Virus record (IMG/VR): IMGVR_UViG_3300046002_004363
Span: 35,578-99,577 of that record
Direction: 5' to 3' (one strand)
From: a virus
DNA length: 64,000 nucleotides
Shown: positions 33,780-36,134 of the stretch, one piece after another
Numbering within the stretch: position 1 is the stretch's first letter
Layout: each line of letters starts with the position of its first letter
Notes under the pieces: model-generated
Told to the model about the DNA's origin: nothing
What the model saw: only the letters and a program-made list of their open reading frames with translations
Databases searched by the model: none
Position numbers and translations under genes: made by a program

Positions 33780-33999
33780 GACACTACAGAGGGTAATCTT
33801 TGAACTATCTGGGCAAAAGAACAATAGGGAGTTTGCAAAGTACATCAGGAGATCAGAGAGTTATACATCGAATATGATAAACTCAGATAAGAATATAAGT
33901 GTTGAACTTGGAATTGATATGATGCAGAGAATGTACTTAGATAAGGAGTTAATTAAGGAGGTTATATTAAATTATATAGATGAGGCTTTCTTTATTTAG
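33769..33999 (+). CDS. Cro/CI-like helix-turn-helix protein
   Basis: A 76-residue protein. NREFAKYIRRSESYTSNMIN (about 19-38) is a helix-turn-helix of Cro/CI type and the flanking helices fit a five-helix repressor fold. It overlaps the previous gene and lies just before the non-coding RNA promoter at 34011, which it may regulate. Confidence 0.55.
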   Translation: MENKTLQRVIFELSGQKNNREFAKYIRRSESYTSNMINSDKNISVELGIDMMQRMYLDKELIKEVILNYIDEAFFI

Positions 34000-34010
34000 A
34001 AGATAGTTCT

Positions 34011-34019
34011 TATATTTGC
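34011..34019 (+). promoter_or_regulatory. -7 promoter box of the tRNA-like RNA gene
   Basis: TATATTTGC, a consensus -7 box, 12 bases after the HTH gene stop. No clear -33 box. No protein gene follows for over 600 bases, so it should make a non-coding RNA. Confidence 0.65.
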
Positions 34020-34145
34020 AAAGGTGCTTATCGCTGTCGGTATTCGGCAGTATCAGGAATAAGTTAAATGGTAGTTCATTCAGCCTTAAAGTAAAATAGC
34101 TAAGCTGTGTAAAGCGTTCAAACTGATAATTGATTAGAAGCTAAA

Positions 34146-34324
34146 TCGGGTGTGGCGGAATGCTAACAATGTGAGTTAAATCGTTAAGGTGTTTAATTCC
34201 TGTTGTTACTAGGTAGACGCAAAAAGATAAGGATAGTGTCATCGTGGGTGTGGAATGGAAAAAGCCCACACGAGTCCTTACTTGGAAATCCACAATTGCA
34301 GGTTCGAATCCTGTCACCCGAGCA
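34146..34324 (+). ncRNA. tRNA-Leu-like domain with D-loop and anticodon-arm insertions
   Basis: The 7-bp acceptor stem is perfect (TCGGGTG 34146-34152 with CACCCGA 34315-34321). TGGCGGAAT and GGTAGACGC give the D-arm of a leucine tRNA (stem GCG/CGC), but about 50 bases at 34162-34211, forming helices TAACAA/TTGTTA and GAGTTAAA/TTTAATTC, separate its halves. The T-arm GCAGG-TTCGAAT-CCTGT (34298-34314) is canonical and a short variable arm (TGGA/TCCA) precedes it. In place of a 7-base anticodon loop there is a long TAAGGA/TCCTTA-based arm. The end is GCA rather than a CCA. It cannot decode as it stands; a decoy, primer or processing signal is possible. Confidence 0.7.
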
Positions 34325-34329
34325 TAGTA

Positions 34330-34440
34330 GTTTTCTTATGATAAAAATCTTTACAAATCCTGTAAGGTAGCTATTCCACTTGGTCGTTTCAACTGACAGT
34401 ATAAGAAAACGGTAAACTCATAATTGACTGTCAAAAGTGG
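34330..34440 (+). ncRNA. Pseudoknotted domain of the tRNA-like RNA
   Basis: GTTTTCTTAT (34330-34339) pairs perfectly with ATAAGAAAAC (34401-34410). Inside lies a CTTTACA/TGTAAGG hairpin. CCACTT (34376-34381) pairs with AAGTGG (34435-34440) and TGACAGT (34394-34400) with ACTGTCA (34427-34433); both helices open inside the first and close outside it, so they cross it as a pseudoknot. Confidence 0.6.
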
Positions 34441-34453
34441 ATATGGATTGACA

Positions 34454-34478
34454 AATCGGAAAGACGATTATTTTTTTT
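34454..34478 (+). terminator. Terminator of the tRNA-like RNA
   Basis: AATCG/CGATT hairpin (34454-34458, 34465-34469) with an A then eight Ts. It marks the 3' end of the RNA. Confidence 0.7.
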
Positions 34479-34510: not shown

Positions 34511-34519
34511 TATCTTTGC
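34511..34519 (+). promoter_or_regulatory. -7 promoter box of the T5orf172-type gene
   Basis: TATCTTTGC, followed at once by the structured leader. A TTG lies 15 bases upstream, closer than ideal. Confidence 0.65.
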
Positions 34520-34522
34520 TGA

Positions 34523-34620
34523 GTAATTTCTGTGGAGGATTAATTACAATTGAAAATATTACAATATCATTAGAAACCTTATAAGGATTAGAGCCTCCAC
34601 CTCGAAACTTATAGGGTTTT
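34523..34620 (+). ncRNA. Pseudoknotted structured leader (type member 2)
   Basis: Hairpin GTAATT/AATTAC (34523-34528, 34542-34547) shows GTGGAGG (34532-34538) in its loop, which pairs with CCTCCAC (34594-34600). AAACCTTATAAG (34574-34585) pairs over 12 positions with CTTATAGGGTTT (34608-34619), and the helices cross. The spacer is CTCGAAA and the segment before the second strand is GATTAGAG (8 bases; GGATAGGA in the leader at 31885). Sequence of the paired parts differs from that leader while architecture is kept, which argues for selected structure. Confidence 0.65.
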
Positions 34621-34639
34621 CTGTTTTAAATAATTTAGT

Positions 34640-35173
34640 ATGGAAAATAAAATAATTAACAATCAATTAAAAGCGTTTCAACTTATTGAGAGTGAAGATT
34701 CAGTCATATTTTTTAACGGATCTTGCTATGAAAACCCCTCAATTGATGAATTAAAGAGAATTAAAAAGCTAATAGATTCAACGATAAATAATTATGAATC
34801 TATATCTTTGGCTATACAAAAATCAAACAATATAATTCAAGAAGAAAGATTTAAAGAATTTGAAGATATATTTAAGCCAAAAAAAGCTAACAAACCTAAA
34901 AAAGGTATAATATATATTATGAAGTGTGGAAGAACAAATCTATATAAAATAGGTTTAACAACTGGAAATGTAAATACAAGATTTAATTCTTTAAAAACAG
35001 CAAATCCTAATATAAACTTGTTTAAATACTACAAAGAAGTAGTTGACCTATACAGCAAAGAAAGAGAATTACATGATTTATTTTGTAATAAAAGAATAGA
35101 TGGAGAATGGTTCGAACTTAATGAGTCAGACTTATGTGAAATAGATTTATTTTTTAACGTTGTGCCTTTTTAA
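34640..35173 (+). CDS. T5orf172/GIY-YIG-family protein
   Basis: A 177-residue protein. The C-terminal 90 residues are the T5orf172 version of the GIY-YIG fold: KKGIIYIMKCGRTNLYKIGL, then TTGNVNTRFNSLKTANPNIN, and a conserved glutamate in ELHDLF followed by GEWFEL. The N-terminal 85 residues are a helical domain of unknown role (SIDELKRIKKLIDSTINNYE). It may be a homing or defence-type nuclease. It overlaps no credible start of the next gene, whose chosen start is 35193. Confidence 0.78.
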   Translation: MENKIINNQLKAFQLIESEDSVIFFNGSCYENPSIDELKRIKKLIDSTINNYESISLAIQKSNNIIQEERFKEFEDIFKPKKANKPKKGIIYIMKCGRTNLYKIGLTTGNVNTRFNSLKTANPNINLFKYYKEVVDLYSKERELHDLFCNKRIDGEWFELNESDLCEIDLFFNVVPF

Positions 35174-35192: not shown

Positions 35193-36134
35193 ATGAATCA
35201 TAGTTTTAACGTAGATATAGCAAAAAAATATGGTGTAGAATTGGCTATAATTTTAGAAAATATGCAGTGGTGGATTGCTAAAAATAAAGCTAATAAAAAG
35301 CATTTTCATCAAGGAAGTTACTGGACATATAATTCTGTAAAAGCATTTTCTGAACTATTTCCTTATTGGTCTGTACATCAAATAGGCAGGTTTTTAAGAA
35401 GACTAGAAGACGAAGGTTTGATAGTGTCTAAAAACTTTAATAAGGCTGGATATGACAAGACAAAGTGGTATACAGTCAATGATAGCTTGATTTTGCAAAA
35501 TTGCAACATCGAATGTGCAGAAATGCACAATCCATTGTGTGAAAATGCACAACCTATACCAGATATAAACACAGATATAAATAATTCTCTTGTAGGGTCT
35601 TCTCAGACACCTACGAAAAAAGATTCTAAGAAAGATTTATTTAAAACCAAATTGTCAGAAATTGATGTTACTACACTTGATAAGCAAGAACAAGTATATT
35701 TTAAAATAGCTATTGGTTTTAGAGATTTGTTTATAAAGAACAAAAAGGCTTTAGGTGTTAATGATTTTAGAGACCAAGAAAACGCTACTTACAAAAATTA
35801 TGTTGACCCAATAAGATTATCTTTTACGCAAGATAAAAAAACAGAGGAAGATTTTAGAAAGGTGTATGCTTTTTTAATGAATGATGAATTCTGGATGAAG
35901 AATATAATGTCTACATCTAAGTTAAGAGAAAAAATGTCTGATTTACTGATAAGATCATCTTCTGTTCCGACTAAGAAACAAGTACTACCATCAGACTTTT
36001 GGGTAAGGGAATTAAGTGATGAGCAAAAGAAATTACTAAGCGATAAAGACTTAGCTACTTGGGAAAGACAGAAGACAGCAAGGCTTATGGAGGGTGGTAG
36101 AATGTTACCTATAAAAATAGAATATGAAAAATAA
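35193..36134 (+). CDS. Replication initiator-like protein (winged helix)
   Basis: A 313-residue protein starting MNHSFNVDIAKKYGVELAII. Residues 1-105 (FHQGSYWTYNSVKAFSELFP; SVHQIGRFLRRLEDEGLIVS) form a replisome-organiser winged helix as in phage O/DnaD-type initiators. A low-complexity linker follows, then a C-terminal domain (residues about 150-260) that would bind the helicase. An ATG at 35160 is in frame but overlaps the upstream gene. It is followed 4 bases later by the primase/ATPase gene, a normal pairing for origin recognition and helicase loading. Confidence 0.75.
   Translation: MNHSFNVDIAKKYGVELAIILENMQWWIAKNKANKKHFHQGSYWTYNSVKAFSELFPYWSVHQIGRFLRRLEDEGLIVSKNFNKAGYDKTKWYTVNDSLILQNCNIECAEMHNPLCENAQPIPDINTDINNSLVGSSQTPTKKDSKKDLFKTKLSEIDVTTLDKQEQVYFKIAIGFRDLFIKNKKALGVNDFRDQENATYKNYVDPIRLSFTQDKKTEEDFRKVYAFLMNDEFWMKNIMSTSKLREKMSDLLIRSSSVPTKKQVLPSDFWVRELSDEQKKLLSDKDLATWERQKTARLMEGGRMLPIKIEYEK

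Follow-up and report, generated by a model that had tools for sequence, protein, structure and literature searches.

A tRNA-Leu-like phage RNA without a normal anticodon arm and with a pseudoknot tail: a candidate tRNA mimic in an Elemovirus-like genome

The RNA unit and its genomic setting

The virus record is 99,577 bp long, and the window, i.e., the whole 64-kb stretch of DNA analysed here, covers record positions 35578–99577. At window positions 34011–34478 (+) lies a stand-alone RNA unit built of five parts: a promoter, leader modules, a tRNA-Leu-like body, a pseudoknot element named F, and a terminator. The unit is flanked by a small ORF that ends at 33999 and by a gene with a T5orf172 domain that starts at 34640. 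The initial annotation of this DNA had proposed a stand-alone RNA gene framed by a promoter and a terminator; both signals are present (34011–34019 and 34454–34478), no convincing ORF lies between them (34011–34478), and together these features support that proposal.

The promoter is a Bacteroidetes-type TAnnTTTG box (TATATTTGC, 34011–34019, +), a similar box begins the homologous cassettes, and the window holds 29 TAnnTTTG boxes against 15.8 expected. The intrinsic terminator (AATCG-GAAAGA-CGATT followed by T8, 34454–34478, +) has a GAAAGA loop and a stem that differs compensatorily between alleles; the automated scan made no call there because the stem contains only two G-C pairs. Downstream of the promoter, leader module E1 (34024–34087, +) forms the hairpins CTTAT/ATAAG and CTGTCG/CGGCAG. 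The tRNA-Met allele of the elemo phages and locus L033 have this leader too, and its outer stem shows a compensatory change from CTTAT/ATAAG to CTTGT/ACAAG. Leader module E2 (34088–34145, +) is the leader of the allele annotated as tRNA-Ala and is 98% identical in elemoA_7-9A; it resembles the D-arm and anticodon arm (loop CTGATAA) of tRNA-Ile(GAU), with neither acceptor nor T-arm, and a weak tRNA-model match of 14.4 bits, the best in its own record, lies mostly over E2. The window unit is thus a composite, i.e., E1 of the tRNA-Met-allele type, E2 of the "tRNA-Ala"-allele type and then the Leu-like body, and E1 and E2 are exchangeable leader modules.

The record itself is a tandem of two homologous phage genomes (spacing about 62 kb, blocks of 73–98% identity); these are two related Elemovirus-like genomes, joined probably during assembly. 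Each carries its own RNA cassette, and the tRNA body differs between the two. The T5orf172/MUG113-domain gene (34640–35173) stands directly downstream of the window cassette. Different small genes occupy this slot in relatives, which suggests an insertion hot spot. Between the cassette and the next gene, at 34511–34632, there is a second promoter box with a conserved structured leader (GTGGAGGATTA ... GATTAGAGCCTCCACC ... ACTTATAGGGTTTTCTG), which looks like an attenuator; other relatives carry an alternative leader ending in TTGGGATTTTTTGTTTT.

Structure of the tRNA-Leu-like body and of the F element

The tRNA-Leu-like body extends from the acceptor to the discriminator G73 (34146–34322, +). 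It contains all the tRNA parts reported for it earlier, i.e., an acceptor with seven of seven pairs (TCGGGTG/CACCCGA), the two halves of a Leu-type D-arm (GCGGAAT and GGTAGACGC) with G18G19 present, and a canonical T-arm (GCAGG-TTCGAAT-CCTGT, 34298–34314, +) with five of five stem pairs. A 7-bp acceptor with a 5-bp T-stem and a TTCRA loop, as expected of a tRNA, is therefore at hand, and a 7/7 acceptor combined with a canonical T-arm occurs at this one place only on both strands of the 64-kb window. The body is also more stable in its fold than shuffled sequences (z = -2.55).

Two regions depart from a tRNA. The extra D-loop hairpin of about 50 bases that had been described is a 51-nt insert (34162–34212, +) that folds as a hairpin, and 32 further viral Leu-like bodies, all distinct, have inserts of this kind. 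The second region is an expanded anticodon/variable segment of 76 nt (34222–34297, +), comprising the stem TAAGGAT/GTCCTTA (34228–34234 with 34274–34280), a large loop, and a possible loop-variable pseudoknot in which TGTGGA (34249–34254) can pair with TCCACA (34289–34294), a pairing reached by 0/30 shuffles of the window body. A 5-bp anticodon stem with a 7-nt loop and U33 is absent from the window body, the best candidate reaching four of five pairs without U33, which confirms the earlier statement that the anticodon arm is replaced and has no normal loop. Judged from this architecture, the window body as a decoding tRNA is excluded because its anticodon arm is missing. ARAGORN, also in the intron mode proposed as a check at the outset, makes no call on the body, and Rfam gives no match there, the gathering threshold of RF00005 (29 bits) not being reached. 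The initial anatomy was thus right in the parts that it named; it had left out the F pseudoknot, the two leader modules and the loop-variable pairing.

The F element (34323–34452, +; 124.7 bits) begins at the tRNA 3' end and is a pseudoknot RNA with helices H1–H4, matching no Rfam family. Its H-type pseudoknot fold is common to eight divergent tails. The order is H1 5' strand, an A-rich loop, hairpin H4, the 5' strands of H3 and H2, and the H1 3' strand, followed by an invariant UCAUAAU and then by the 3' strands of H2 and H3. In the hand register of the eight sequences, 74/74 (H1), 56/56 (H3) and 47/47 (H2) positions are paired, and most pairs of H1–H3 differ in type between sequences, i.e., compensatory change is extensive. 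In a MAFFT alignment the nested helices are 89.4% paired (66.7% in shuffles), with 14 pairs changed on both sides by the count of the tool; the covariation is 0.656 versus 0.220 in shuffles, a value reached by 0/500 of them, and sliding the register by one column destroys the signal. F is a new structured RNA family.

The F model finds one element per phage record and two in the composite record of the window. At L047 (4135–4264, -) the F tail follows directly 3' of a protein gene without any tRNA, therefore F is not merely a tRNA trailer; at L044 (5714–5835) it lies behind the end of an SSB-like gene with only a T-arm-like hairpin. The F model gave no real match over the loci with Leu-like bodies; F is therefore a feature of the Elemovirus-like lineage, not one shared by the whole Leu-like class described below. 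A first, wide F pattern had returned 10 stretches with neither tRNA nor F structure, and the 12 matches of the F pattern in bacterial genomes were all chance or coding. The F model found none in 397 Flavobacteriaceae genomes, a weak negative since it was run without a positive control. We also considered UCAUAAU as a possible CAU-like loop mimicking an anticodon; no conserved stem supports it.

Exchange of the body and recurrence of the architecture

Elemovirus phages of Flavobacterium (isolated on strain BAL314) and IMG/VR contigs carry the homologous unit at the same place, flanked on one side by the genes after the 5'-3' exonuclease and on the other by the replication genes. These relatives retain the promoter, the 3' tail and the terminator, as well as a C[AT]NAGTA junction that immediately follows the discriminator base, and the tRNA body is swapped at the exact tRNA ends within this fixed frame. 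The elemo phages carry a normal tRNA-Met(CAU). The allele annotated as tRNA-Ala has an anticodon stem ATCAA/TTGAT around 10 nt (8 nt with a U-G pair) and a T-stem that changes compensatorily between alleles from GAAGT/ACTTC to GAAGG/CCTTC; its deposition as a decoding tRNA in the elemo phages is probably a misannotation. In L005 (1590–1665, MT497017.1) and in our own record (C1:7231–7307) the anticodon loop of this allele lacks U33. L035 has a body without an anticodon arm, L033 and L036 have Leu-like bodies with expanded anticodon regions (L036 also a Met-type body with an altered anticodon arm), and L039/L044 contain further rearranged bodies, one of them Leu-like with a 44-nt D-loop insert. 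Please note that in the Met-type body at L044 6628–6705 (identical to L039 3388–3465) the CAU anticodon arm seems to lie 5' of a D-loop-like segment, so that this is possibly a rearranged tRNA.

Viral contigs were searched with a Leu-type D-arm pattern that allows 11–52 nt between the halves. With 40–52 nt, 17 stretches were found versus five with the reversed-pattern control; with 11–39 nt there were 35 stretches, the reversed control covering the 40–52-nt range. Acceptor, T-stem and T-loop match in 35 of 53 places (window included), most of them perfectly, versus 3% of random downstream regions, whereby the search pattern and the pair filter favour tRNA-like frames and the Leu-specific pattern defines the class. 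The distinct Leu-like bodies in viral contigs number 33. G18, i.e., the G before GTAGACGC, is kept in 32/33, and the discriminator is A73 in 26/33, G73 in the window body and three others, and C73 in three. The region from D-arm to T-stem ranges from 19 to 191 nt (19 nt in L113, 30 nt in L111), and a normal anticodon arm is missing in nearly all 33; single members may still decode, because a few reach 4–4.5 of 5 on a loose anticodon-arm score. ARAGORN makes no tRNA call on any class member tested, and some relatives lie barely above the RF00005 threshold (e.g., L084, 30.9 bits). The class has probably been overlooked so far because standard tRNA annotation misses its members.

The window's own body was seen once, and the covariation evidence comes from subfamilies of the class, where relatives had been proposed as the place to look for it: both strands of the acceptor, the T-stem, the D-insert stem and the anticodon stem vary while their pairs are preserved. 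The stem around the loop ATGNTTATAGCA, for example, occurs as ACAG/CTGT, CTAG/CTAG and TTGG/CCAA. The insert TGGCGCTGGGATAAAAACTGGGGCC is conserved in L081/L084/L106 and the 12-nt loop ATGGTTATAGCA in L101/L119. A motif TGGCGYTGGGATAAAAACTGRGGCC recurs in the D-loop inserts of L081, L084, L100, L106, L114 and L115 with a varying outer stem. With D-loop inserts, stems and elbow bases conserved or covarying within subfamilies, the term "degenerate" used for the body in the initial annotation does not fit. Several copies may stand on one contig; the four of L088 have identical frames and different middles. The acceptor AGTCAGG is common to fourteen class members.

The loop-variable pseudoknot was rejected as a class-wide feature, being strong in part of the members only (8/41 at ≤1/30 shuffles, about 2.6 expected). 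Group I introns and permuted introns were also rejected, with no Rfam match. No D-loop-expanded Leu-like body was found in 397 Flavobacteriaceae genomes, in which 11/11 controls returned ordinary Leu D-arms, and the AGTCAGG acceptor with this D-arm was not found in 60 flavobacterial genomes. A BLAST comparison of three relatives with isolated phages produced no match at E ≤ 0.01; to date the Leu-like class is therefore documented in metagenomic contigs.

Proposed function and comparison with known systems

The window RNA and its relatives appear to form a genuine class of tRNA mimic that had gone unnoticed, and do not look like a decaying gene. We read them as mimics because what stays constant in the class coincides with the region of a tRNA to which RNase P, RNase Z, the CCA-adding enzyme, EF-Tu and several host effectors bind; such retention was first suggested from the window alone and recurs in the 33 bodies, as does the architecture that makes decoding unlikely. 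Most likely, with a rough probability of 0.4 and on sequence evidence, the locus encodes a decoy for host proteins that grip the tRNA acceptor and elbow. The phage RNA would be a stand-alone transcript bounded by the promoter and the terminator of the unit. Its core retains three features of a class II (Leu-type) tRNA, namely acceptor stem, T-arm and D/T elbow, and for this reason could plausibly be matured by host RNase P, RNase Z and the CCA-adding enzyme. The replaced anticodon domain and the hairpin in the D-loop would preclude decoding, and F, at the tRNA 3' end, probably shields the RNA or helps its release. The mimic may then occupy host proteins that hold tRNA by acceptor and elbow, the likeliest targets being tRNA-attacking defence effectors, which would find no anticodon in it to cleave. 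Phage tRNAs are known to counter defences that target tRNA (PMC10264068, PMC11555353), and one host effector, Cas12a3, grips acceptor, CCA tail and T-arm (PMC12851939). We put forward more tentatively that phages widely encode non-decoding tRNA mimics, often several per genome, as interchangeable decoys in the arms race over tRNA, set in Elemovirus-like phages into a fixed frame with the F pseudoknot, and, equally tentatively and as one with it, that such decoys are a counter-defence principle unlike the supply of resistant decoding tRNAs. The G73 discriminator of the window body, which differs from most of the class, is a point against the decoy reading.

The bodies could instead be tRNA scaffolds whose frame serves processing and stability and whose function lies in the variable inserts, either protein-binding or antisense. 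This is rather unlikely taken alone, and still nearly as good an explanation as a decoy: the frame is conserved while the inserts vary between phages, some of them being kept within subfamilies, and insert variability equally fits a scaffold with other payloads. The window inserts, however, have no long antisense match to their own phage record beyond chance, and retention of G18 and the elbow suggests that the tRNA shape itself matters. That host LeuRS charges the bodies, which would then compete for EF-Tu or donate leucine outside translation, is improbable. Leucine identity in E. coli depends on A73 and D/T-loop contacts and not on the anticodon or variable arm, and minimal tRNA-Leu variants are leucylated (PMC9976931), which agrees with A73 and G18 in most bodies; against charging stand the G73 that the window body shares with three others, the three bodies with C73, and the sister alleles at the locus that are not Leu-type.

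A captured tRNA-Leu broken by insertions is slightly less probable still. An intact tRNA-Met does sit at this locus in related phages, the elemo phages, as anticipated for simple decay, and the window body was seen once; that tRNA-Met, however, has no sequence relationship to the window body and is exchanged precisely at the tRNA ends, many viral contigs contain similar expanded bodies with preserved acceptor, T-arm and G18, and the promoter, the F element and the terminator of the unit are all intact. We consider decay unlikely because the elbow bases are preserved, the class stems covary, the copies are multiple and the exchange is precise. The least probable explanation, and a very improbable one, is that the D-loop and anticodon inserts are introns, spliced from the transcript to leave an ordinary decoding tRNA-Leu. 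Without its insert the D-loop would indeed be normal, both in the window and in L083, but no excision yields U33 with a Leu anticodon in the window, neither ARAGORN with introns nor Rfam intron models find anything, and the anticodon region is too short in some members, such as L113 and L111.

Returning to the decoy reading, we found no description of such RNAs in the open-access literature, which is not proof of novelty, and several known systems invite comparison. YrlA, a bacterial Y RNA, is a tRNA mimic whose anticodon arm is replaced by another helix. The window RNA shares this replacement and differs in its full Leu-type D-arm and F pseudoknot; the Rfam Y-RNA model matches neither it nor its relatives, and a Ro/TROVE protein is encoded in 0/18 phage records (the positive control was detected; the search covered the phage side). 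The tRNA-like domain of tmRNA likewise combines acceptor and T-arm without an anticodon arm and has pseudoknots nearby. Here, by contrast, the D-arm is kept, the third acceptor pair is G-C and not G-U, and neither the G3-U70 pair, a tag ORF nor an ARAGORN tmRNA call was found. Plant-virus tRNA-like structures are viral RNAs that imitate the upper half of tRNA, with pseudoknots; the RNA here differs as a predicted separate transcript of a DNA phage, with a true D-arm and a body 5' of the pseudoknot. Some GOLLD/ROOL-type RNAs lie near tRNA genes. GOLLD and ROOL are large structured noncoding phage RNAs (e.g., PMC12286853), alike in kind to the RNA described here, which is much smaller, of other architecture and without a GOLLD/ROOL match in Rfam.

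Phage tRNAs that counter defences aimed at tRNA (van den Berg 2023, PMC10264068; PMC11555353) are likewise phage-encoded and altered in the anticodon region, and a role in the tRNA arms race is probably common to both. Those escape tRNAs decode and carry point changes in the anticodon loop, whereas the RNAs here have D-loop hairpins and no usable anticodon arm, i.e., the window body is not an intact decoding tRNA with changed loop bases. Decoys of elbow and acceptor would be an obvious candidate for a phage answer to Cas12a3, for which viral countermeasures to tRNA-tail cleavage are unknown according to its authors (PMC12851939). Since sister cassettes are present in Elemovirus isolates whose Flavobacterium host is in culture, the idea is testable now, and the F pseudoknot adds a further structured RNA family. 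What purpose phage tRNAs serve has been asked for over 50 years (PMC10264068); if our reading is true, part of that purpose is tRNA mimicry and not translation.
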